This document shows positions 4,360-42,767 of a DNA stretch of 64,000 nucleotides, in pieces. Each line of letters begins with the position of its first letter. Within the stretch, counting starts at the first letter, position 1. The notes under the pieces were generated by a model. It was not told where the DNA came from and ran no database searches. It saw only the letters and a list, made by a program, of their open reading frames with translations. Source of the stretch: an uncultured Alistipes sp. Lineage in GTDB: Bacteria; Bacteroidota; Bacteroidia; Bacteroidales; Rikenellaceae. The stretch is from NCBI GenBank assembly GCA_944321945.1, contig CALUNE010000013.1:1-64000 (forward strand), read 5' to 3'. Both the position numbers and the translations under genes were made by a program.

Positions 4360-4390
4360 TTTGCAAATCACGGATATTATTGTATTTTTG
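4360..4390 (+). promoter_or_regulatory. Promoter of locus 1 sigma gene (TTTG-N19-TATTTTTG)
   Basis: TTTG at 4360-4363 and TATTTTTG at 4383-4390 are separated by 19 bases, a full match to the Bacteroidetes housekeeping promoter. Transcription would start near 4397, about 50 bases before the chosen start codon. Confidence 0.85.
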
Positions 4391-6113: not shown

Positions 6114-6200
6114 AAACCAACCCGACCCGATCAAACCAAAACCTAATCTGAAACCGAAAGACCTCTGCTGCCTATGGAGAACTGACCGACATGCTCCTGC

Positions 6201-19750: not shown

Positions 19751-19848
19751 TAAAAAACCGATTTTCAGAACCTTAAAACCGACACTGCCTATGAATTCGT
19801 GATCCGTACTCTCCAGACCGTTACCTGCGTTCCGTACGGACCTCCAGC

Positions 19849-19940
19849 AAAAAGGCCCGGAGCTGCGCCAACAACTCCGAGCCGCAGGATAACGGTCGCT
19901 CCCTCGCATCGGGACAACCTTGAATTATTATCCTTAAACC
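19849..19940 (-). ncRNA. Predicted antisense small RNA at susC of locus 2 (DonS type)
   Basis: A minus-strand promoter at 19947-19978 would start RNA near 19940. A minus-strand intrinsic terminator lies at 19849-19883: GGCTCGGAG pairs with CTCCGGGCC (one G-U pair, 12-nt loop), followed by TTTTT. The RNA would be about 92 nt, complementary to the susC leader, and its 5' end covers the CCTTAA motif 16 bases before the susC ATG. No ORF is needed to explain it. The layout matches cis-antisense RNAs such as DonS that repress N-glycan loci in Bacteroides fragilis. The transcript is predicted only. Confidence 0.7.
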
Positions 19941-19946
19941 AACCTG

Positions 19947-19978
19947 CAAAGATATGAAGAAAAAAGTGTCAGGCCAAA
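19947..19978 (-). promoter_or_regulatory. Antisense promoter TTTG-N20-TATCTTTG over the susC start of locus 2
   Basis: On the minus strand TTTG (19978-19975) and TATCTTTG (19954-19947) are separated by 20 bases, a full consensus promoter. The -7 element shares its first base with the susC start codon and the -33 element lies inside the signal-peptide codons. Confidence 0.8.
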
Positions 19979-32154: not shown

Positions 32155-33822
32155 TCAGTTGAAACGCAGCCAGTCCGGATAGTAGAGCATGTTCCCGTAG
32201 CCCGGGAGCTGGTAGGTGGTGTTGGGATTCTGAAGGGCGCCCTGCGTGGCACACGTAACATCGGTCAGCCAGGGCATGTTGTTCCCGCCATCCGTCCACG
32301 GCAGCATGAATCCCAGAAAGGCTCCCAGATTCGCGCCGGTTTTGCCCTCGTTTCCTTCGATGATCGGGATCAGCTCCTCGACCAGAATCCGCGGATCCTC
32401 CGACAGGACGATCTCCATCATCATCTCATTGAAGGAGTCATCCCAGGCCCGTTCTTCCCACACGCCGGTGTCCCGCGCCCGGACCGTAAAGCGGCCGTAG
32501 CGCTGGCGCGAAAGCCCGGCAATGGGTTTGCGCGGGGCGCCTTCGGCATAGGGGTCCGTCAGATCGGCGGCCGTGCCCGTCCAGGCATAGTCGAGGTAGG
32601 TGCCGGCCTCGATTCCGTCGTGGGCCTCGTAGAGCGTGGCCGAGGGCTCGCCCAGATCGGTCAGGGTGATCGTCTTGTCGGGAAGCGCCGCACGGAGGTC
32701 GCGGATGAATTTGGCGTAGGAGGAGGGATCGATGCCCGGCAGCCCGTTGGCGCCGTAGTTGGAATACTCGTCGTTGAGGTTCACGCCGTCGATGCCCGTT
32801 TCGTCGATCAGCCGGGCGATCTGAGCAACGAGTGATGCCCGCTGCGTATCGTCGAGGTTGCAGAACCCGATGCCCGAGCCGCTGCCCGTCAGTTCGATGG
32901 TGACCCGGATTCCCTGCTGCTGGATCGGCTGCAGATAGCGGTCCGGATTGTCCAGCAGATGGGTCAGGTTGCGGTTGATGTCGAGCCGCGGCATCTTCGT
33001 CAGGGGATCGTATCCGATCGTGCCGCCCAGAATCACCACGATGTCGCAGTATTCATAGAGGGTGGTCTCCCAGGTCGACGGATCGGTGTAGGTGAGGACC
33101 GGTTCGAGGCAGACCCGCGGGTCCATCCACGAGGGGTCGATATAGATGACGCCGCACTCCATGCAGGAGGTCCCGTGTCCTTCGATCCGGGGCGAGGGAC
33201 GGCGCAGCGTAACGGGATCGACCATCAGTTCGTAGTAGAAACGGCAGCTCTGCGTCTTTCCGTCGGCATCGACCGTTTCGGCCTGCAGGATCACGAGAAA
33301 ACTGCTGTTGACGGCTGCATCGCCTGCGCCTTTCAGATCGATGCGCACGGGAATCTCCAGACGGGTCTCTCCGGCCGGGAGAATCTGTTCGCCGAGCGTC
33401 GCCGTCACGTGATCTGCCGGAACCTGGAAAAACATCCGGTCGATCGCTTGCTGTTCGCCGACGCCTCCGTTCAATTGCAGGATGACTTTACTCAACGAAT
33501 AATAGGTGTTGGCCTCGAACAGCAGCTTTTCGTCCTCGACCACCGAAAGGGTGACGCTGACATCCTGGTCGCGGACCTTCGGCATGGCGAAGGCGAGCTG
33601 GTCCTCGAAGGTCGACTCCGCATCGACCCACACCCGGGCCACCGAATCGCGCGTCGTGAGTGCGCTGTAGAACCGCGGGGCGACCTCGCCCGACGGATCG
33701 AAGGCTGTGCCCGACCCGGCGTCGAACCCGATCGGATCGGCCGTGCAGGCCGTCAGCACCGCCGCCAGAAGCACCGCCGGCCCCAGCAGACCGGTCGGCC
33801 ATGATCTATGTAGTGTTTTCAT
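32155..33822 (-). CDS. DUF1735-GH18 lipoprotein with altered catalytic motif, locus 3
   Basis: The protein has 555 residues with an acylated Cys at 26 (LTAC). An N-terminal DUF1735-like part (about 55-205) precedes a GH18-like barrel (about 225-530). At the end of strand 4 it has DGVNLNDE at 345-352, where GH18 enzymes have DxxDxDxE. The acid/base Glu (E352) is kept, but both assisting Asp positions are Asn (N348, N350), and D351 precedes the Glu. The second Asp normally orients the 2-acetamido group, so activity may be reduced, shifted in specificity, or lost. The alternative is that D351 takes over that role. It is the last gene of locus 3. Confidence 0.82.
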   Translation of the reverse strand: MKTLHRSWPTGLLGPAVLLAAVLTACTADPIGFDAGSGTAFDPSGEVAPRFYSALTTRDSVARVWVDAESTFEDQLAFAMPKVRDQDVSVTLSVVEDEKLLFEANTYYSLSKVILQLNGGVGEQQAIDRMFFQVPADHVTATLGEQILPAGETRLEIPVRIDLKGAGDAAVNSSFLVILQAETVDADGKTQSCRFYYELMVDPVTLRRPSPRIEGHGTSCMECGVIYIDPSWMDPRVCLEPVLTYTDPSTWETTLYEYCDIVVILGGTIGYDPLTKMPRLDINRNLTHLLDNPDRYLQPIQQQGIRVTIELTGSGSGIGFCNLDDTQRASLVAQIARLIDETGIDGVNLNDEYSNYGANGLPGIDPSSYAKFIRDLRAALPDKTITLTDLGEPSATLYEAHDGIEAGTYLDYAWTGTAADLTDPYAEGAPRKPIAGLSRQRYGRFTVRARDTGVWEERAWDDSFNEMMMEIVLSEDPRILVEELIPIIEGNEGKTGANLGAFLGFMLPWTDGGNNMPWLTDVTCATQGALQNPNTTYQLPGYGNMLYYPDWLRFN

Positions 33823-33840
33823 CTTGAATTCCGTTTAAGG

Positions 33841-35073
33841 TTACTTGTTGAGCTGCGGCACCTCCACCGAGGTGTTCCATTTGAGCGGATTGACCGCCAC
33901 GCCGTCGTTGCCGTGACCCGTGACGTCGCGCACGATGCTGCCGTCCCCGGCCTGGTCGAACTTCCAGTAGCCGAGCAGCCCTTCGCTGGCGGGATCCACG
34001 TCGTACATGTGGTCCCAGATCTCCTGCTGCGTGCGTACCACGGACCAGACGCGCGCTTCGGCGACCTCGCCCTGCAGCGGTCGGTTGTCGTCGTACGAAC
34101 GACCGATGAAGAACTGGTAGGCGTCGCCCAGCGAGGCATTTCCCGTCGGGTCGGCATCGTACAGGGCCCGCATGGCCAGGTTGATCTCGTCGCCCGACCA
34201 TTTGACCGTCCCGGCGCTCTGCAACTCTCCGTTGACGAAGATCTGCATCTGTCCGCTCAGAATGTCGTAGGTCAGGGCCAGGTGGTACCACTCGCCCGGT
34301 TCGAGCGACAGCACGTCATCCGCATCGGGGAACTTGTTGCTGCCGGCCTGCACCTGAAGCTGCTGGCGCGGGAAGCCCGAATCGCCGAAACGCAGCAGCA
34401 GATACTGTTCGACGCCCATCACCGAGGAGATGTCGACCGCCTGGTTGAAGGCGCTTACACGCACGATGATCTCGTAGGTGACGGCCTTCAGCCCGTTGAA
34501 CAGATCGCTCTGCGGACCCGCCTGGTCGAGCGTCGGGAACGAGATCCAGTTGTCGGTCAGGTCGGCCACGGTCGTGATGGCGCTCGTCTGCTTGACCAGA
34601 TACCAGATCGTGGACGAGGCGTCGAGCAGCGCGATGTCATCGCTCGTCACCCGAACGGGCAGCAGGAAGGTTTCGTCGGCCGGCAGTTCGGTCAGCGCCT
34701 TGAAATCCACCGTCACGGGTTCCGACGAGACGTTCCCGGCCGGCACGGCAAGCGAGCGCGCGGAGAGTTCGTAGTGCGACGGATCGAGCATCGAGAACTG
34801 TGTGCCGAAGCGGGCGTTGTAGCGCTCCACGTCGGCCGCGTCGGTGTGCAGGACGGCCGTCACGGGATGGTCCACCGGTCCGCTCAGCGTGGCTGCAAGG
34901 CTCGTCTGCCGGTTTTCGACCTCCCGCTTGAAGAAGACCTGGATGTCGCAGCGATCCGCCGCCGCATCGAGATAGAGCGCCGCATCGACCGGGCTCTTTT
35001 CGTCGTACCGGTCGCGGTCGCAGGCCGTGGACAGCGCCCCGGCACATATCAGAAGGATCAGAAAGCGTTTCAT
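33841..35073 (-). CDS. DUF1735-LamG surface glycan-binding lipoprotein, locus 3
   Basis: The protein has 410 residues with an acylated Cys at 18 (STAC), followed by an acidic DRDRYDE stretch, which suits surface export of Bacteroidetes lipoproteins. DUF1735 covers about 30-165 (VERYNARFGTQFSMLDPSHYEL) and LamG about 180-390 (GEWYHLALTYDILSGQMQIFVNGEL, GLLGYWKFDQ). Its ATG overlaps the stop of the preceding gene by four bases, so the two are translationally coupled, which suggests that their products are needed in fixed ratio. Confidence 0.88.
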   Translation of the reverse strand: MKRFLILLICAGALSTACDRDRYDEKSPVDAALYLDAAADRCDIQVFFKREVENRQTSLAATLSGPVDHPVTAVLHTDAADVERYNARFGTQFSMLDPSHYELSARSLAVPAGNVSSEPVTVDFKALTELPADETFLLPVRVTSDDIALLDASSTIWYLVKQTSAITTVADLTDNWISFPTLDQAGPQSDLFNGLKAVTYEIIVRVSAFNQAVDISSVMGVEQYLLLRFGDSGFPRQQLQVQAGSNKFPDADDVLSLEPGEWYHLALTYDILSGQMQIFVNGELQSAGTVKWSGDEINLAMRALYDADPTGNASLGDAYQFFIGRSYDDNRPLQGEVAEARVWSVVRTQQEIWDHMYDVDPASEGLLGYWKFDQAGDGSIVRDVTGHGNDGVAVNPLKWNTSVEVPQLNK

Positions 35074-35939
35074 GGTTTGTCGGTTTTGGGAATGAGGCTT
35101 AAGCGGGTGATCAGGGCCCGGGTGGCCGAATAGTTCAGTCCCGAGGCGTGGTAGTAGTCCTGACTGATGTCATAGAGGGCCGTTCCGGCCAGATTCAGCG
35201 AGGTGCTGATCCGGCTTCCGAGTGTCAGCGCATCGGTTTTCGTGCTGCGGTAGTCGCGCAGCGACGAGCCCGGGACGACCTCGAAAAGGAGTTTCTGCGC
35301 CGGAATGCCGGCCCGCAGCGCGCGGTCGATCATCTGTTCCAGATCGCTCTGGTAGACCATCGCCGAGGTAGGCAGCACCACCCACGTGAACGACGGATAG
35401 TATCGGGCGTCGATCAGCGAGGGGTCGCCCTCGTAGACGACGGTTCCGAGGCCGGCCAGTGCCGCAAGGGCCGCTCCCGGATCCGGGAAGGCTCCGTCGG
35501 GGGCCTGCAGCGCCACGCCGTCGAAGCCGTGGCGGTCGACCAGTGCCCGAATGGCGGCGGGATCCTCGCCCGCATGAAGCGGCCAGAGAACCTGCGTGCC
35601 GAGTTCGTGCATGCGCTTCAGGTCGTCGATGTCGGCCTGCGAAGGGGTGCGCTGCAGGCTGACGATGTCCAGCGAGTCGGGCAGCGAGCGCAGGAAATCA
35701 CGCTCCGAAGTCGACCGCTCGGGGGCGTTGAGCAGGCAGGCGTAGACGATCCAGTGACGGGTCTGTTTGTAGGCTCTCACGCCGGCCGTGTACGTCTCCC
35801 AGGCGGCCGGATCCTGACGGTCGGGGCCTGCCACGTCGAACGTCACGCTTTCGGGCTCGGTCCACTCTCCGCACGCCGTCGGCAGACCGCATGCCAGAAC
35901 CGACAGCAGGAGTATTTCGATGAATGGTTTCGCTTTCAT
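35070..35939 (-). CDS. GH18-like lipoprotein lacking the catalytic motif, locus 3
   Basis: The protein has 289 residues with an acylated Cys at 23 (TAC) followed by GEWTEPE, nearly identical to SEWTEPE in the locus 2 GH18. It also shares VRAYKQTRHWIVYACLLN with the GH18 start and LPDSLDIVSLQ with the strand before the acidic loop. At the catalytic strand, HGFDGVALQAPDG places DGVALQAP at 140-147 where DxxDxDxE is expected, so the Glu is replaced by Pro. The barrel is also shortened. It is best read as a GH18 paralog converted to a glycan-binding protein on the surface. It sits five bases after SusD and overlaps the LamG gene. Confidence 0.8.
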   Translation of the reverse strand: MKAKPFIEILLLSVLACGLPTACGEWTEPESVTFDVAGPDRQDPAAWETYTAGVRAYKQTRHWIVYACLLNAPERSTSERDFLRSLPDSLDIVSLQRTPSQADIDDLKRMHELGTQVLWPLHAGEDPAAIRALVDRHGFDGVALQAPDGAFPDPGAALAALAGLGTVVYEGDPSLIDARYYPSFTWVVLPTSAMVYQSDLEQMIDRALRAGIPAQKLLFEVVPGSSLRDYRSTKTDALTLGSRISTSLNLAGTALYDISQDYYHASGLNYSATRALITRLSLIPKTDKP

Positions 35940-35943
35940 GGTT

Positions 35944-37530
35944 TCAGTCGTTATAAGGTTTCACATCCCACCAGATGCGTGTCCCGGGCGTATCGGGCCC
36001 GGCCAGCATCTCGACGGCCGCCGCAACGTGGGCCGGATTCTCGGTGTACTCCTCGGTGGGGTAGTTCAGCCGCCGGGCACCGTGTTCCGACGAGACCGTG
36101 CCGCCGCTCTGGTTGTTCACCGTCGGGAAGAGCCGCGGATAGCCCGTGCGCCGGTATTCGGCCCAGGCCTCGGTCCCCAGCGGGAAGATGGCGATGTATT
36201 TCTGGGTGATGATGCGTTCGAGATTCTCCTCCGCGTGTTGGCTTCCCGTCGCCCACGGCAGGGTGATCTTGCTCCGGGCGGCAATGTGGTCCGAACCGAC
36301 GTTGTCCACGTAGTTCTCCGGTACGGCCGTCGCCTGGGCCAGATAGGCCTCGGCTCCGTCGACGCCGTGCTCCTCGAACGAGAGCGCCACACCCTCGGCG
36401 TAGAGCCGCGCGGCTTCGCTCTCCGATCCCCAGCGCAACTCATATTCGGCCCGCAGGAACGTGGCCTCCGCGGCGTTGAACCACAGATAGGGCGATTTCG
36501 AATCGATGATCAGGTTCGAATACCCGGCCTTGGCCTGATCGGCACTCGCCGGATAGGCTCCGATGCGGATCCCGGCATATCCCATGACGGTCTGCTCGCC
36601 CTGCTTGACGGGCACCTGCGTAAACATGGTCTCGCGTCGCGGATCGTTGTAGCCGTTCATCAGCGAGAGGATGTCCGCACCGATGCGGTGGTCGTTCCAG
36701 TCGGTCCAGCAGAGGGCCGCGCGGTTTTCGGCCTGCGTCAGCAGCGCATTGTCGGCATTGGTCGTGATGACGCCTCCGGCGATGGCTTCGGCCGCCTTCT
36801 CGCGCGCAAGTTCGGGCTCGACGTACGAGAGCCGCATGGCCATGCGCAGCTTCAGCGAACGGGCATACCGCAGCCACTTCGAGATGTCGCCGCCGTAGAC
36901 GTTGTCGAACTTCCCGAAGGCCTCGGTCGACAACTGAATGTTCGTCTGCAGAGTCTCGATGGCGGCATCCAGCTCCTCGAACATCTTCGTATAGACCTCC
37001 TGCTGCGAGTCGTAGGCCACGGCCAGCGACTCCTTGCGGTCCTCGATGACCTTCGAATAGGGGATCGGGCCGTAGGTGTCGGTCACGCGGTGCATGATGG
37101 CCACGCGCAGCAGGTCGGCCAGTGCCAGCATCACGGCATTGTCCGTTCCGTTGACAATGCCCCGGTAGTAGGGGTAGGTCTCCGAGAGGACGTTCACGAA
37201 GGGCCATTTCAGCCAGTCGGCCGTGGGGTTGAAGGTCGAGAACTTGTTCAGCCAGCCGTCCGGCGTCCCCTCGACATACCCGGCGTAGGAGCCCCCGACG
37301 AGCAGTTCGTTGAACTGGTAGATATGTTCCTCGACCGGAATGACCAGGCTGATGAGCCCCTTGATGTTGGCTCCGGTCTTGTAGTTTTCACGTTGGATCT
37401 CCGCCTCGGTCACCTCGTTGGGGTTGCGGTTGATCTCCGCAAAGTCGCCCGTGCAGCCCGCTGCGGTCCACAGGACGACAACGGCGCCCAGCATCCGGAG
37501 CGTACGGTGGATGGATCGTCTTGTTTTCAT
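35944..37530 (-). CDS. SusD-like surface lipoprotein (SusD-like_2), locus 3
   Basis: The protein has 528 residues with an acylated Cys at 26 (AAGC) and the N-terminus TGDFAEINRNPNEVTEAE. Conserved blocks include HRVTDTYGPIPYSKVIED, WLRYARSLKLRMAMRLSYVEPELA and ERIITQKYIAIFPLGTEAWAEYRRTGYPRLFP, and the end has GTRIWWDVK like its two paralogs. It pairs with the SusC encoded nine bases upstream. A tyrosine- and tryptophan-rich stretch in its first quarter may contact sugar rings; this is a guess. Confidence 0.95.
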   Translation of the reverse strand: MKTRRSIHRTLRMLGAVVVLWTAAGCTGDFAEINRNPNEVTEAEIQRENYKTGANIKGLISLVIPVEEHIYQFNELLVGGSYAGYVEGTPDGWLNKFSTFNPTADWLKWPFVNVLSETYPYYRGIVNGTDNAVMLALADLLRVAIMHRVTDTYGPIPYSKVIEDRKESLAVAYDSQQEVYTKMFEELDAAIETLQTNIQLSTEAFGKFDNVYGGDISKWLRYARSLKLRMAMRLSYVEPELAREKAAEAIAGGVITTNADNALLTQAENRAALCWTDWNDHRIGADILSLMNGYNDPRRETMFTQVPVKQGEQTVMGYAGIRIGAYPASADQAKAGYSNLIIDSKSPYLWFNAAEATFLRAEYELRWGSESEAARLYAEGVALSFEEHGVDGAEAYLAQATAVPENYVDNVGSDHIAARSKITLPWATGSQHAEENLERIITQKYIAIFPLGTEAWAEYRRTGYPRLFPTVNNQSGGTVSSEHGARRLNYPTEEYTENPAHVAAAVEMLAGPDTPGTRIWWDVKPYND

Positions 37531-37539
37531 GGCTTCGGT

Positions 37540-40500
37540 CTAAAATGTCAGTTTTACGTTGAATCCGATGTTGCGCAGCGACGGCATCATGAAGTAGTCG
37601 ATGCCCTGGTAGAAGGTGTCGGTCGAGGCGACGCTCTCCGGATCGAACGGCGCCTTGCAGTAGATCATCCACAGGTTGCGTCCCACGAGCGAAATTTCGA
37701 TCGAGCAGACGTCGCCCAGCCAGCGTCGCGGCAGCTCGTAGCCGAGCGACAGCTCCTGCAGCCGGACGTTCGTGGCCGAGTAGGTGTAGTATTGCGGCAG
37801 TCCGGACTGGGCCGAGATGGCCTGGTACCACTTCTGCGGATCGGCCATCGAGCGGCCGTTGACCCGTACGCCGCCCAGGTCGCGGGCTGCGGCCGTGGCC
37901 TCCGAGACGCCGAACTGATCCATCCAGGCCTGGGTCGCCGAGTAGCAGATGCCGCCCAGTCGCGCCGAGACGAGGAATCCGAGCCGGATGCCGCGCCAGT
38001 CGAAATCGTTGCGCCAGGCCAGATTCGCATCCGGAAGCACCGATCCCAGCAGAATGTCCGGCCCGTTGTCGACTACCGTCACGTTGCCCTTGTCGTCGAA
38101 CTCGACATACCCCTTTTCGCTGTACTTGAGGTTCGAATTGGTGTAGAGGTCGCCCATCGTGCCGCCCGGCTTGAGGATGTATTTGGCCTTGCCGAGCCCC
38201 TTGATTTCGAGGCGGTCCTTCGAGATGAGTTCGCCGGTCTCGGGGTGGGTGTAGTTGTGGACCAGTTCGACGATCCGGTTGCGGTTCCACGAGAAGGTGA
38301 AGTTCGAGGCCCAGCCGAAGTCGCGCCAGCGGTTGTCGTAGCCGAGTGAGGCCTCGATACCCGTATTGCGGACGTGGCCCGTCTGGAGGTAGATCGTCGA
38401 GTAGCCCGACGAGACGGAGATCTGCGGATCGAACGTCTGGTTGAAGGTGTCGGCGCGGTACCACGAGGCCGAGAGGCTCAGGTGGCGCCACAGCCGGAGG
38501 TCGAGCCCGACCTCCCACGTGCGCGTGCGCTCCGGATGCAGATCGCCGATCGGGTAGTGGGTCTTGGGTTTCCAGGCGTGGTTCGTGTTGTCGTATTCGT
38601 AGGTCGGGATGGTGAGATGGCGCGGGAAGGGGATACCCACCGACGAGTAGGAGGCCCGCACCTTCAGGTAGCTCAGTGCCTCGGGCAGATCGAACGTCAC
38701 GCTCGGGATCCACGCCACGCCTACCGACGGATAGAAGAACGACGAGGAGGGCGATTCGGCCAGCTGCGAGGCCCAGTCGTTACGCCCCGTAAGGGTCAGG
38801 TAGAGCATCTGCCGCCAGCCGACCTCGACCGAGGCGAATACGGACTGGGTCTGCTCCCGCCAGCCGCTTTTCGAGGCCCGGCGCTTCTCGATGTCGAGGT
38901 CGAAGACCGAAAAGACGTTCGGAATGCCGTCGTTGGAGATCGGGCCCTGGTAGAGGAGTTCGTCCGAACGCGTGTCGTTGATCGAGGCGCCGACGTTGGC
39001 GTGGAGCGACCAGTCGCGGCCGAACGTCTTGTCGATGTTGGCTATCAGGTCGGCATAGGTCTGTTTGTCGTAGCGGCGCGCCTCGCCGTAGAAGCCCTGC
39101 GTACTGCCTTCGAGCAGCGTAGCGTTCGTCGAGGCGTAGAGTTTCTGCGTGTAGAGGTTGTCGGAGTTGTCGACCCGCACGCGTCCCGTGATGTCGAGCC
39201 AGTCGGTGATCCGGTAGGCGAGCGAGGCCGAGAGCATGTAGCGGCTGCGGTCGTTGTCGCGCAGGTTGCGGTAGGCGATCCAGTAGGGGTTCTGCATCCG
39301 CAGGTCGCCGCCTTCGCCGTAGGGCCAGTACTGTTCGTAGATGCCTCGTGCGGCGTTGTAGCGTTCGAAGTTCCTGACCAGCGTGAAATCCTCGCCCCGC
39401 GGGAAGAGGTAGGCCGAAACCAGCGGATTGGAGTAGATGCCCTGGTTGGTCATGTTGCGGTCCTTCTGGATGATGTACGAGGCCCCGACATCGAGCCGCA
39501 GCCGGTTGTCCAGAAAGAAGGAGGAGTTGCGGAAGGTGAAGTTGTAACGGTCGTAGAAGTTGTTCGGAATGATGCCCTCCGAGGCGACCGATGCCGCCGA
39601 GAAGAAGGTCCGGTTGCGTTCCGTGCCGCCCGAGAGCGTCAGCGAGTTGGAGCTGACATAGCCCGTCTCGAAGAAATCCTCCGGCGTGTAGCCCGTGCGG
39701 GCCGCCTGGGTGAGTTTCGGACCCCAGCTCTGGATCGGCGACCCCTCGCGCTCACCGTTCGAGCCCGTGCCGTAGCGGTTCTGGAACTCCGGCATGACGA
39801 ACGGCGAGAGGAACTCGTTGTTCGACGAGAGCGTCACGCGCAGTCTGCCGGCTTCGCCCTGCTTGGTGGTGATCATGATGGCGCCGTTGGCGGCATTCGA
39901 ACCGTAGAGGGCGGCCGCCGCCGCACCGTTCAGTACGCTGATGCTGGCGATGTCGTCGGGGTTCAGATCCGCGATGGCCTCGGTGGCACCCTTCGAGTCG
40001 AACTCCGTGCCTCCTCCGCCGCCGTAGTTGTTCATCGGAATACCGTCGATGACATACAGCGCATTGTTGCTCTGCGAGATGGACTTCTGACCGCGCAGCA
40101 CGACCTTCGCGGCGCCGCCGACTCCCGACGACGAGGCGTTGATCTGCAGTCCGGCAACCTTGCCCGCCAGCGAATTCATGAAGTTGGCGTCCTTGACCAG
40201 GGTGATTTCATCGGCATGGAGCTGTGTGACATTGTAGGCCAGGGCCTTTTCGGAGCGTTTGATGCCGAGGGCCGTCACCACGACGCTCTCGATCTCGGAG
40301 ACCGATTCGCGGAGCGTGATGTCGAAGTGCGTGCGGCTTCCGACAGGCAGCGTGAGGGGCTCGTAGCCCAGGTAGCCGATCTCCAGAGTGGCGGTGGAGG
40401 GCGACGCCACGTGCAGTGTGAAGCGCCCCTCTTCATTGGTCGAGACGCCGTTGGTGGTCCCGCGGACCAGCACCGTGGCTCCGACGATCGGACGGCCCGA

Positions 40501-40878
40501 GGCGTCGCCGACGCGTCCCGAGACCGTCGCCGGGGCCTCCTGCCGGCGCACCGAGAGCGAAATGCTCAGCGAGCGGATGTCGTAGCGGATGTCACTGCCG
40601 CGGAGCATCTGGTCCAGCGCCTCGATCAGCGGAGCTTCGGTGACGTCGACGCTCACGATCCGGTCGGTCGGGACCTCGGCACTCGTGACGAAGAGATATT
40701 TGGTTTGTCGTTCGATTTCGGCCATGACCGCCGTCATCGGAACCCGCTCGAGGCGGATCGTTACGGTGACGTCGCTGCCCGGTGCCGCCGCGGCGTGCGG
40801 CGCCCCGAACAGACACGGGCCGAGTATGAACAAAAAAGTAAACAGACGTTTCGTTTGTCGGATCAACTTTTTATTCAT
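37540..40878 (-). CDS. SusC/RagA-type TonB-dependent transporter, locus 3
   Basis: The protein has 1112 residues when started at the ATG at 40878 (MNKKLIRQTKRLF), which gives a proper signal peptide; the open frame extends 22 codons upstream without one. It has an STN domain (VTVTIRLERVPMTAVMAEIERQ to about 110), a regulatory-like sandwich (TVSGRVGDASGRPIVGATV), the plug start VVVTALGI at 199-206 and a barrel ending VKLTF. The STN domain fits its sigma/FecR pair. As in locus 2, the start codon touches the -7 element of an antisense promoter. SusD follows after nine bases. Confidence 0.96.
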   Translation of the reverse strand: MNKKLIRQTKRLFTFLFILGPCLFGAPHAAAAPGSDVTVTIRLERVPMTAVMAEIERQTKYLFVTSAEVPTDRIVSVDVTEAPLIEALDQMLRGSDIRYDIRSLSISLSVRRQEAPATVSGRVGDASGRPIVGATVLVRGTTNGVSTNEEGRFTLHVASPSTATLEIGYLGYEPLTLPVGSRTHFDITLRESVSEIESVVVTALGIKRSEKALAYNVTQLHADEITLVKDANFMNSLAGKVAGLQINASSSGVGGAAKVVLRGQKSISQSNNALYVIDGIPMNNYGGGGGTEFDSKGATEAIADLNPDDIASISVLNGAAAAALYGSNAANGAIMITTKQGEAGRLRVTLSSNNEFLSPFVMPEFQNRYGTGSNGEREGSPIQSWGPKLTQAARTGYTPEDFFETGYVSSNSLTLSGGTERNRTFFSAASVASEGIIPNNFYDRYNFTFRNSSFFLDNRLRLDVGASYIIQKDRNMTNQGIYSNPLVSAYLFPRGEDFTLVRNFERYNAARGIYEQYWPYGEGGDLRMQNPYWIAYRNLRDNDRSRYMLSASLAYRITDWLDITGRVRVDNSDNLYTQKLYASTNATLLEGSTQGFYGEARRYDKQTYADLIANIDKTFGRDWSLHANVGASINDTRSDELLYQGPISNDGIPNVFSVFDLDIEKRRASKSGWREQTQSVFASVEVGWRQMLYLTLTGRNDWASQLAESPSSSFFYPSVGVAWIPSVTFDLPEALSYLKVRASYSSVGIPFPRHLTIPTYEYDNTNHAWKPKTHYPIGDLHPERTRTWEVGLDLRLWRHLSLSASWYRADTFNQTFDPQISVSSGYSTIYLQTGHVRNTGIEASLGYDNRWRDFGWASNFTFSWNRNRIVELVHNYTHPETGELISKDRLEIKGLGKAKYILKPGGTMGDLYTNSNLKYSEKGYVEFDDKGNVTVVDNGPDILLGSVLPDANLAWRNDFDWRGIRLGFLVSARLGGICYSATQAWMDQFGVSEATAAARDLGGVRVNGRSMADPQKWYQAISAQSGLPQYYTYSATNVRLQELSLGYELPRRWLGDVCSIEISLVGRNLWMIYCKAPFDPESVASTDTFYQGIDYFMMPSLRNIGFNVKLTF

Positions 40879-40885
40879 AAATTTG
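40854..40885 (+). promoter_or_regulatory. Antisense promoter TTTG-N20-TAAATTTG over the susC start of locus 3
   Basis: On the plus strand TTTG (40854-40857) and TAAATTTG (40878-40885) are separated by 20 bases. No plus-strand gene lies downstream. The position relative to the susC start codon is the same as in locus 2. Confidence 0.8.
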
Positions 40886-40891
40886 TGAATT

Positions 40892-40964
40892 AAGGTTAGA
40901 GTAGGAGTTTTTCGCTCGAACCCGGGCCTGCCGGATGGTCGCACATCCCGCAGGCCGTTTTTTT
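40892..40964 (+). ncRNA. Predicted antisense small RNA at susC of locus 3 (DonS type)
   Basis: Start near 40892 follows from the promoter at 40854-40885. The RNA ends at a strong intrinsic terminator: GGCCTGC (40925-40931) pairs with GCAGGCC (40950-40956), a C-C mismatch, then GGATG (40933-40937) with CATCC (40944-40948), and seven T at 40958-40964. It would be about 73 nt and antisense to the susC leader, beginning at the TTAAGG complement of the leader motif. DonS in Bacteroides fragilis is of similar size and position and represses an N-glycan locus. The rest of the 227-base spacer (40879-41105) has no gene. Confidence 0.75.
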
Positions 40965-41105
40965 GAGGGTCCGGCCGGTTGGTTGAGTTGGTTTTTCGGA
41001 GGTGGAATCAGTTCATGGGCATGTCGTTTTCGGGTTCGTATTCGGGTTGGTGTGTGCGGAGCCTGTCCGGGATGCGCTTCGGCCGGCGGAACGCCCCGCT
41101 GAGTG

Positions 41106-42065
41106 TCAGCGGATGATGATCGTATTGGTCTGTTCGTCCTTCTCGTAGCGGAAGTCGGCAAACTGCTGCAGCACCTGCAGGGCGTTGTCGATGCCGATCG
41201 ACTGACGGATCTTGCCCTGTCCGATGCGGATGTCGGGTTCGCGTTCGAGGCGGATCGTCACGCCAAAGGCCTTTTCGAAGCGCTCCATCAACTCGGCGAA
41301 CGTGCGGCCCGTCAGGTTGATGATTCCCTCCGTCCAACGGTAGTCGTCGGCGTTTTCGACCGTGCCGACCTGCAGATGTCCGCCGTGAAGGGTGGCCACC
41401 TCGTTGGGCCGGAGGATGATCCGCTCGTCGGGGTGCTGTCGGTTGGTGATCGCCACGCGCCCCTCGAACAGAGCCGCGGAGAAGATCCCCTGGTCGGCCT
41501 CGGCAACGACGTTGAAGGTCGTCCCCAGCACCTCCAGATCGCAGGCACGGGTCTCGACCACGAACGGATGCCGTTCGTCGTGCGTCACCTCGAAACGGGC
41601 CTCGCCCTCGACGATGACCCTCCGTTCGCGATCGGCGAAAAGCGCCGGATAGCTGATCCGCGAGCCGGCGTTCAGCCAGACGTCGGTGCCGTCCTGCAGC
41701 GTGAGCTTGATGTGCTGTCCGGCCGGGACCTCGACGGTCAGCAGCTGCCGGCCGCGGTCGGAGAGCCTGTGGTTCTGCCGGAGGAGGCTGCCGCCGGCGA
41801 TCAGCAGCACGACGACGGCAGCCGCCGCACTCCAGCGGCGCAGAAGGGTGAAGTGCCGGCGGCGGTTCCGAGCATGGAGTTCGTCGATGACCGGACCGGC
41901 CATCGCCACCAGATCGTGCTGGTGCTGGATCTCCGAGAGCAGGCGTTCGTGTTCGGCATCCTGCTCGAGCCACTCCAGTACGGAGAGCTCCTCTTCGGGG
42001 GTTGTTCGGCATCGGACGTAGCGGTACAGGGTCTCCTTGTCTATCTTGACGGGACTGTTTTTCAT
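41106..42065 (-). CDS. FecR-type anti-sigma factor of locus 3
   Basis: The protein has 319 residues from the ATG at 42065 (MKNSPVKIDKETLYRYV). The cytoplasmic segment covers 1-75, a membrane helix lies near 78-95 (SAAAAVVVLLIAGGSLL), and the FecR domain contains GQHIKLTLQDGTDVWLNAGSRISYP and LEVLGTTFNVVA. The DUF4974 end has FAELMERFEKAFGVTI and DEQTNTIIIR. It is similar to the locus 2 anti-sigma in all conserved blocks. A longer frame upstream to 42140 lacks support and overlaps the intergenic hairpin. Confidence 0.92.
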   Translation of the reverse strand: MKNSPVKIDKETLYRYVRCRTTPEEELSVLEWLEQDAEHERLLSEIQHQHDLVAMAGPVIDELHARNRRRHFTLLRRWSAAAAVVVLLIAGGSLLRQNHRLSDRGRQLLTVEVPAGQHIKLTLQDGTDVWLNAGSRISYPALFADRERRVIVEGEARFEVTHDERHPFVVETRACDLEVLGTTFNVVAEADQGIFSAALFEGRVAITNRQHPDERIILRPNEVATLHGGHLQVGTVENADDYRWTEGIINLTGRTFAELMERFEKAFGVTIRLEREPDIRIGQGKIRQSIGIDNALQVLQQFADFRYEKDEQTNTIIIR

Positions 42066-42108
42066 GGTTGTGCGATCGTTTGACACTATAATGACGCACA
42101 ACGCAACG

Positions 42109-42135
42109 GGATTTGCGGGAAAAACCGGCAAATCC
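42109..42135 (-). other. Hairpin between sigma and anti-sigma genes of locus 3
   Basis: GGATTTGC (42109-42116) pairs with GCAAATCC (42128-42135); after one mismatch two more G-C pairs close an AAAAA/TTTTT loop. It occupies the same place as the locus 2 hairpin, though the sequence differs. Confidence 0.55.
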
Positions 42136-42179
42136 TGCAAATAAATATTTTTAAGAATCGGATGGACGGTGGCAGACGG

Positions 42180-42767
42180 TTACGTAAGCCGCGATCCGCC
42201 CTCGACGAACAGTGCAACCAGCGGCAGATAATCCTTCAGTGCCATCTTGAGTGATTCGCGGGCCATGCGCAGTTCGTAGGTCACCTGACCTTCGGAGAGC
42301 CCGTAGAGGGCGGCGATCTCCTTGTAGGACATCTCCTCGAAGCGGTGGGCCGTGAAGATCCGGCGGCGTTGTTCGGGCATGCGCCGGAGTTCGGTCTCGA
42401 GAATCGTGAGGGCTTCGGAGATCATCAGCGTGTGGGAGGTGTCGGATTCGAGCCGTGCGATGCGTTCGGCGACGATCCGCTGTTCGGTCCGGTGCAGCTG
42501 GAGATGGGCCTTGAGGTGGATGTTGCGGTCGCGCAGCCAGTCCAGACATTTGCGGCGAAGAGCCGTGAGCAGGTAGGCCGGCAGATTGCGCGGTGAAATT
42601 TCGGAGCGATTTTCCCAGATCTTCAGAAAGGCGTCGGTGACGAGATCTTCGGCCACCATGCGGTCGCGGACGTACGACCGTGCGATGTCGACGAAATAGG
42701 CCCGGTAGCGGGCATATACCTCTTCGAATCGGAGCGGTGAATCTGTTCTTTCCGGAGTCTCGTCCAT
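42180..42767 (-). CDS. ECF sigma factor of glycan locus 3
   Basis: The protein has 195 residues. Region 2 contains YFVDIARSYVRDRMVAEDLVTDAFLKIWENR, and region 4 contains MSYKEIAALYGLSEGQVTYELRMARESLKMAL. Residues 80-130 form a helical charged linker. It is closest by eye to the locus 2 sigma. The FecR gene follows after 114 bases. A weak -7-like TACTTTTA lies at 42799-42792 on the minus strand. With its anti-sigma and SusC it should form a self-contained surface-signalling switch. Confidence 0.92.
   Translation of the reverse strand: MDETPERTDSPLRFEEVYARYRAYFVDIARSYVRDRMVAEDLVTDAFLKIWENRSEISPRNLPAYLLTALRRKCLDWLRDRNIHLKAHLQLHRTEQRIVAERIARLESDTSHTLMISEALTILETELRRMPEQRRRIFTAHRFEEMSYKEIAALYGLSEGQVTYELRMARESLKMALKDYLPLVALFVEGGSRLT

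Follow-up and report, generated by a model that had tools for sequence, protein, structure and literature searches.

Does the strand opposite the start of an Alistipes susC gene carry an RNA gene of its own, and what could such an RNA do to the PUL in which that susC gene lies? The sequence-only reading of the window, the 64,000-nucleotide stretch analyzed here (contig C13 of an assembly of 2.23 Mb in 24 contigs, 77.65% complete), had predicted a short antisense RNA at this position. We conclude that the locus is probably a DonS-type cis-antisense RNA gene that most likely represses susC and its PUL and that sits in a leader built for control.

The PUL occupies the minus strand from 32155 to 42767. 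It contains genes for an ECF sigma factor (42180..42767; Pfam Sigma70_r2 and Sigma70_r4_2), a FecR-type anti-sigma factor (41106..42083; Pfam FecR and FecR_C; the stop is at 41106 and the start position is approximate), and the susC homologue under study (37540..40878), followed by a susD homologue (35944..37530; Pfam SusD-like, 555.9 bits), a GH18 BT1044-like gene (35070-35939), a gene with BT_3987-like_N and Laminin_G_3 domains (33841-35073), and a GH18 gene (32155-33822), all assigned with Pfam. The susC product is a TonB-dependent receptor with Plug and CarbopepD_reg_2 domains, a TIGR04056 score above the cut-off, and an STN-like N terminus that falls slightly below the Pfam threshold (27.0 bits versus 28.4). 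Its closest named relatives are Alistipes MAGs and isolates, with up to 87% identity. An open reading frame listed on the plus strand (38374-40893) runs antisense through susC.

Promoter register on the susC start codon

On the plus strand, a -33 element, TTTG (40854..40857), lies within the susC coding region and is separated by 20 nt from a -7 element, TAAATTTG (40878..40885), so that the promoter spans 40854-40885. T40878 is the complement of the A in the susC ATG; the -7 box starts on the start codon. Direct reading thus bore out the predicted TTTG-N20-TAAATTTG arrangement and its register. The second locus for which the same geometry had been claimed was also recovered, by pattern search and direct reading, at the susC gene that starts at 19954 (+). 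Its antisense promoter (19947..19978, -) has the -7 element at 19954-19947 and the -33 element at 19978-19975, and its terminator hairpin (19854..19883, -; script and direct reading) extends from 19883 to 19854.

TIGR04056 matched 42 places genome-wide, 32 of them above the cut-off; five weak matches were left out, and 37 starts were examined (34 elsewhere in the genome and three in the window). Ten of these susC genes have a long N-terminal extension, a class assigned by length, the Pfam STN check having been made for the studied susC alone. TAnnTTTG was found exactly on the start codon in six of the ten and in none of the 27 other susC-like genes, three of which (L088, L094, and L110) carry it at different offsets. 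Besides the two loci in the window, the six comprise four further genome loci, including L102, where GTTG replaces TTTG at -33. Since the window's first susC and three other susC genes with a long N terminus lack the antisense promoter, it is dispensable. The broader pattern TTTG-N19-21-TANNTTTG matched the genome 120 times, versus 13 times for the reversed pattern. Another sigma-ABfr-type promoter match was observed in the window at 4360-4390 (+), away from susC starts.

Relatives were taken from the best 80 of 280 stretches encoding a relative of susC, and 79 remained after L002, which lacks an ATG, was dropped. The -7 box lies on the start codon in 38 of them and at offset -13 in seven, which are Bacteroides, Muribaculaceae, and Porphyromonadaceae records. 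All 41 relatives without the box on the start codon, these seven included, were excluded from the members. Viewed from the susC strand, the -7 box reads CAAANNTATG, which was present on 44 of 89 examined susC starts (6/10 in the genome itself and 38/79 in relatives) and on only 2 of 368 other long-ORF starts, a set of first ATGs in ORFs with 250 or more codons on either strand, spurious ORFs among them.

Finer tests used 64 pooled loci, namely, 43 start-codon loci that have 150 nt or more of upstream sequence and 21 loci from a search for GCCTATG upstream of CAAANNTATG. The 21 added loci were found via the CAAANNTATG motif and are hence conditional on it. Removal of similar leaders left 47 loci, with the studied genome included. 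A -33 TTG was located at 20 nt in 26 of these loci and at 19 nt in 9 (together 35/47), while no other gap between 10 and 31 nt had TTG in more than 4 of the 47. The earlier argument that chance was an unlikely source of the pattern therefore holds: the same register recurs at six genome loci, and conservation of both register and -33 spacing in relatives rules out a chance promoter match. A conventional sigma-70 scan was poorly suited to the Bacteroidota phylum, and its terminator scan missed the hairpin described below, probably owing to the internal mismatch.

Terminator and folding strand of the predicted antisense RNA

The predicted RNA is ~74 nt long (40891..40964, +; 73 to 75 nt, with the 5' end placed from the -7 box) and folds with a minimum free energy of -33.2 kcal/mol (z = -3.97; none of 200 shuffled sequences was equally stable). 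It forms a 5' hairpin, H1 (40894..40922, +), seen in the fold and in the complementarity of the leader segments M and D described below, and a terminator hairpin, H2 (40925..40956, +), in which a C-C mismatch separates helices of 7 bp and 5 bp beneath a loop of 6 nt. A G and then a tract of seven T residues (40958..40964, +) follow. The strong terminator that had been predicted, with 7 bp, one mismatch, 5 bp, and T7, is thus present, and as a whole it covers 40925-40964 (+).

In the studied genome, the script identified a strong terminator at five of the six loci; L101, the remaining one, forms a strong hairpin (the entire RNA folds at -28.2 kcal/mol) and lacks a clean T run. Predicted RNA lengths at the six loci are 74 to 94 nt, with 5' and 3' ends assumed. 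Among the 51 loci that have the -7 box, a script detected a terminator-like hairpin with an energy of at most -14 kcal/mol in 38, versus 2 of 38 loci that lack the box. Those with both box and hairpin comprise 31 of 44 start-codon loci (the six in the genome included) and all seven offset -13 loci, and 13 of the 44 start-codon loci lack a script terminator of this strength. Of 47 loci, 39 have a U-tract after the hairpin on the antisense side and none has one on the sense side, which rules out the hairpin as a sense-strand terminator of fecR. A clear U-tract is missing in the remaining eight, in L100 and L011 because the script picked another hairpin.

Where one strand forms a G-U pair, the opposite strand has an A-C mismatch, and wobble pairs can be counted by strand. 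Among 45 loci, internal hairpin wobbles favored the antisense strand 24 to 1 (binomial P = 1.5e-6), a count for which hairpins were chosen symmetrically between strands, although an A-run filter was applied to the sense 5' side. It replaces an earlier count of 35 to 1 in 26 loci, which was biased by choosing hairpins through antisense-strand folding. The unfiltered symmetric count, helix ends included, gave 59 antisense versus 26 sense wobbles. A consensus fold of 35 sequences on the sense strand contained 31 A-C cells versus 2 G-U cells, despite a procedure that favors sense wobbles. In the H2 consensus (35 sequences), compensatory changes occurred at all nine pairs. Because of the 24-to-1 wobble ratio and the A-C excess in the sense fold, we conclude from these alignments that H2 is conserved as part of the antisense RNA. 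The comparative evidence strongly supports what had been proposed for this position, a dedicated antisense RNA with a promoter registered on the start codon and a terminator of its own.

A covariance model (R1) built from 35 antisense sequences recovered six loci in the studied genome, all of them training members, and no further copy in that genome at E values up to 1 (150 of 406 first-look candidates scored). With stricter filters, R1 matched 11 of 101 family genomes at an E value of ≤0.01, in 3 of 22 genera. Applied to 38 nontraining loci, it gave five marginal matches (E = 0.18 to 0.68), all near Bacteroides-type susC starts. Rfam models at the gathering score had no match in the window. 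The antisense RNAs share partly similar 5' ends with a TTAAGG-type stretch and have diverged bodies, with a mean column identity of 45% (alignment A2). For the six loci in the genome, computed duplex energies were -152 to -204 kcal/mol with the cognate leader versus -38 to -74 kcal/mol with noncognate leaders. The much stronger cognate pairing agrees with the earlier suggestion that each RNA may act only on its own susC, but the partly similar 5' ends could allow cross-action. Taken together, the comparative data show that the predicted antisense RNAs at susC genes with a long N terminus have been selected as RNAs and are not spurious transcription.

A mini-ORF and alternative pairing in the susC leader

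The leader of the studied susC gene carries a mini-ORF, ATG AAC TGA (41016-41008, -), 138 nt upstream of the susC ATG. By direct reading, the second locus has ATG AAT TCG TGA (19791..19802, +) and the window's first susC has ATG GAG AAC TGA (6174..6185, +); this last gene keeps the mini-ORF and lacks the antisense promoter and terminator. The general form is ATG, one to seven codons, and a stop. Upstream sequence sufficed at 43 start-codon loci; GCC[T/C]ATG occurs at 29 of them, an ATG plus stop picked by eye at 8 more, and neither at 6 (L045, L047, L052-L054, and L072). The other 45 susC starts have GCC[T/C]ATG in seven cases, of which six are offset -13 loci (out of seven such loci) and one is the window's first susC. 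The 29 loci, the window's first susC, and the 8 eye-picked loci make up 38 Alistipes-type rows, L010 having been dropped since its match lies inside a gene. An in-frame stop follows within seven codons in 38 of 38 rows, in 18 of them after one codon, and in 30 of 30 when the eye-picked rows are removed. Over all 39 rows, the other two frames have median lengths of 31 and 27 codons and stop within seven codons in 10/39 and 6/39.

The early stop was also assessed at further loci by running the pattern GCCTATG-N100-130-CAAANNTATG against 151 genomes of the genus, with stops ignored, which gave 73 matches versus 13 for the reversed pattern. Three matches belong to the studied genome; the other 70 were used, 67 of them distinct. 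At 21 new susC loci, some of which resemble each other or the earlier set (e.g., L147/L168 and L149/L165), a stop follows within eight codons in 20, versus 6/21 and 4/21 in the other frames. The lone exception is L177 (G087:C37), where the frame of the leader ATG crosses the susC start and meets no stop before the retrieved sequence ends. Known susC loci had the early stop in 16 of 16 cases, and the 30 matches outside the susC class had it in 9, versus 16 and 4 for the two remaining frames; L166, which is among these 30, resembles a frameshifted susC.

Adenines at -14 to -11 have been described as a translation motif of Bacteroidetes (PMC6847099). At mini-ORF starts, A occupies -14 and -13 in 40/50 and 45/50 rows, versus fractions of 0.53 and 0.52 at 174 background starts. 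The mini-ORF thus combines a start codon in a translation context with a conserved in-frame stop, and we conclude from the alignments that it is conserved in the leader of ECF/FecR-type susC genes. A search of k-mers and alignment columns for a fixed sense promoter upstream of it yielded only an A-rich stretch at -15 to -12. No published description of a conserved mini-ORF in susC leaders was found by title and abstract, in a search that covered few subscription papers.

The six offset -13 loci with GCCTATG have a 15-codon frame in five cases and ATG TAG in one. In the five (L029, L031, L032, L034, and L035), GCCTATG lies at about -130 of susC immediately before an A run, and the 15-codon frame passes through the hairpin with a similar amino acid sequence. 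L061 has ATG TAG in place of this frame, and GCCTATG is absent from L058. In the L156 hairpin (G109:C4), the mini-ORF sequence CCTATGA recurs in the 5' arm, which could let the 3' arm pair with the start of the mini-ORF.

Between hairpin and susC, the sense leader contains segment M (GGGTTCG, 40917..40923, -), identified in the sense-leader fold. It can pair with segment U (CGGACCC, 40967..40973, -) on the far side of the hairpin, the 5' arm of an outer stem of 7 bp including one G-U, or with segment D, which lies 34 to 9 nt before the susC ATG. When partners were shuffled among 45 loci, native U-M and M-D pairing was equaled in 0 of 20,000 permutations each, and the control pairing U-D was equaled in 4,848 of 20,000. 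This permutation supersedes two outer-stem tests, one in which the arms of many loci paired no better than foreign arms and a second that gave 0/20,000. The studied sense leader is predicted to fold with U and M paired (z = -2.02; 6 of 200 shuffled sequences were equally stable). U lies beyond the antisense terminator, and U-M pairing is therefore possible in the sense leader only. Its wobbles lean weakly to the sense strand (22 versus 19 antisense; P = 0.023). The complementary segments D' and M' form H1 of the antisense RNA, and M-D wobbles (14 sense versus 73 antisense) show no departure from composition (P = 0.13). The offset -13 loci showed no outer stem, their outer arms pairing no better than foreign arms.

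Relation to known RNAs and proposed mode of action

DonS-type RNAs are expected to have their own promoter and an intrinsic terminator, and both features are found here, as far as sequence alone can tell. Cao et al. 2016 is reportedly the original DonS paper, on PUL-associated cis-antisense RNAs of Bacteroides. We conclude that, on its sequence features, the predicted Alistipes RNA is a DonS-type PUL antisense RNA, a kind with known members in Bacteroides. DonS and RNAs like it are reported to be 78 to 128 nt long, to lie divergent to susC, and to lower susC expression (PMC7366714); the RNA predicted here is likewise a short cis-antisense RNA encoded divergent to a susC homologue, at 73 to 75 nt with an inferred 5' end. 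RNAs of the DonS type are associated with PULs for mucosal or N-glycans. DonS itself is reported to face an N-glycan PUL and its mechanism is called unknown there (PMC11697453), and the PUL studied here also has GH18 and BT1044-like genes, a comparison made on the gene content of this one PUL. In Bacteroides thetaiotaomicron, 32 PUL-associated antisense RNAs are annotated, and pairs with susC are reported as anticorrelated or correlated (PMC10994844). Unlike DonS, the RNA described here belongs to Alistipes and two other genera of the Rikenellaceae. Its two-hairpin fold and mini-ORF leader also set it apart from the published account of DonS, to which it is likened by description and not by sequence. 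In Bacteroides-type relatives, the -7 box lies 13 nt further inside the gene than the start-codon box here and the RNA is longer. What these comparisons contribute is the constant register on the start codon, the evidence on strand, the alternative pairing, and the mini-ORF.

FopS and GibS of B. thetaiotaomicron provide a second likeness, as small RNAs of ~65 to 70 nt that act near the start codon to reduce translation of susC (PMC11697453). FopS is presented there as a multicopy family with one shared seed that is antagonized by RbpB, mostly encoded away from its target, with 4 of 14 members classed as antisense RNAs (PMC11697453). The Alistipes RNAs differ in lying opposite their own susC genes and in having diverged bodies. 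As a very short ORF upstream of a regulated gene, the mini-ORF resembles bacterial regulatory uORFs and leader minigenes (PMC12121999, PMC8708949). It departs from such uORFs in having no conserved peptide, often reading ATG-codon-stop, lying at ECF/FecR-type susC genes, and being followed by the hairpin of an antisense RNA gene.

We propose that the housekeeping sigma factor would start the ~74-nt RNA on the strand opposite susC, a short distance past the start codon, and that the RNA would fold into two hairpins and end at its own terminator. Its complementarity to the susC leader would be complete between about -12 and -86, and it would pair just upstream of the AUG, adjoining or over the A-rich positions that recruit ribosomes. 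The likeliest consequences would be a block of initiation or a duplex exposed to RNase. In this way, susC and the downstream PUL would most likely be repressed when the cell lacks the glycan or has access to a better sugar, and once the ECF sigma factor is released, susC mRNA would out-titrate the antisense RNA. On the sense side, the leader would present a translated mini-ORF near its 5' side and then segment M with its two alternative partners. U-M pairing would close a stem around the terminator hairpin and leave the start region open; alternatively, M would pair with D, which adjoins the start codon. The mini-ORF may serve to leave the 5' leader region open, or it may deliver ribosomes to susC. 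Depending on where susC transcription starts, the mini-ORF and segment U may be partly outside the susC mRNA.

A more far-reaching version of this proposal, which we offer tentatively and would not yet bet on, is that the leaders of ECF/FecR-type susC genes in Alistipes and relatives are composite RNA switches. Such a switch would join a mini-ORF of two to eight codons to U-M/M-D pairing around a hairpin that is also the terminator of the opposite strand, and mini-ORF ribosomes and antisense RNA would jointly set the pairing and susC translation. If true, this would explain how a PUL is shut off once the inducing glycan is gone. Gut Bacteroidales have many PULs, and how translation of existing PUL mRNAs stops as a glycan fades is called unknown in the introduction of PMC11697453, which then offers FopS as one answer. 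The leader mini-ORF would be an addition to the known picture of PUL antisense RNAs. The comparative data define the elements to mutate, namely, the antisense -33 and -7 boxes, the terminator, U, M, and D, and the AUG and stop of the mini-ORF.

Other readings assign the conserved leader sequences to the sense strand or to DNA. GCCTATG could be a sense promoter or a protein-binding motif, with the early stops merely avoiding a long interfering frame. The conservation of G, C, C, and T before the ATG (43, 43, 49, and 44 of 50 rows) favors this, in a partly circular way as most rows were found by the motif, and so does the retention of GCCTATG at six of the seven offset -13 loci with either the 15-codon frame (five) or ATG TAG (one). 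We consider it somewhat unlikely, since GCCT has decayed in L021, L024, L025, and L015 while ATG plus stop remains (eye-picked rows), the A at -14/-13 fits a translation motif and played no part in row selection, mini-ORF length varies while the stop stays in frame, and frame avoidance itself presupposes ribosomes that use the AUG. A different possibility is that the conserved structure is a leader element of susC mRNA, an attenuator or stabilizer, and the promoter-like sequence a by-product of the translation start context. The confinement of U-M to the sense leader and its sense-leaning wobbles (22 to 19, P = 0.023) agree with such an element. The by-product part is ruled out by the absence of CAAANNTATG from 366 of 368 other long-ORF starts, and the TTG at -33, the U-tract on the antisense side only, and the antisense direction of the hairpin wobbles make this reading highly improbable.

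Two further alternatives accept the promoter and differ on how it would act. In transcriptional interference, the RNA itself would be inert, and convergent polymerases would collide or the promoter would compete with the susC elongation complex. The promoter at the susC start codon does point against susC transcription, and the RNA ends before running far toward fecR. Interference needs no conserved structure, yet H1 and H2 covary and the terminator wobbles are 24 to 1 in favor of the antisense strand; we judge it distinctly unlikely as the full explanation. Like FopS, the RNAs could also use their related 5' ends to target several susC mRNAs in trans. The partly conserved TTAAGG-type stretch and noncognate duplexes that reach -74 kcal/mol speak for such action, but cognate duplexes are at -152 to -204 kcal/mol and the RNA bodies differ, which makes it unlikely. 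Repression in cis by the antisense RNA remains our preferred reading.

Apart from these readings, the apical parts of H2 (40925-40956) and of the L003 hairpin (upstream of susC 3001) are reverse complements of each other (GGATGGTCGCACATCC versus GGATGTGCGACCATCC) in hairpins that are otherwise similar. It is as if the loop had been inverted, perhaps via template switching.
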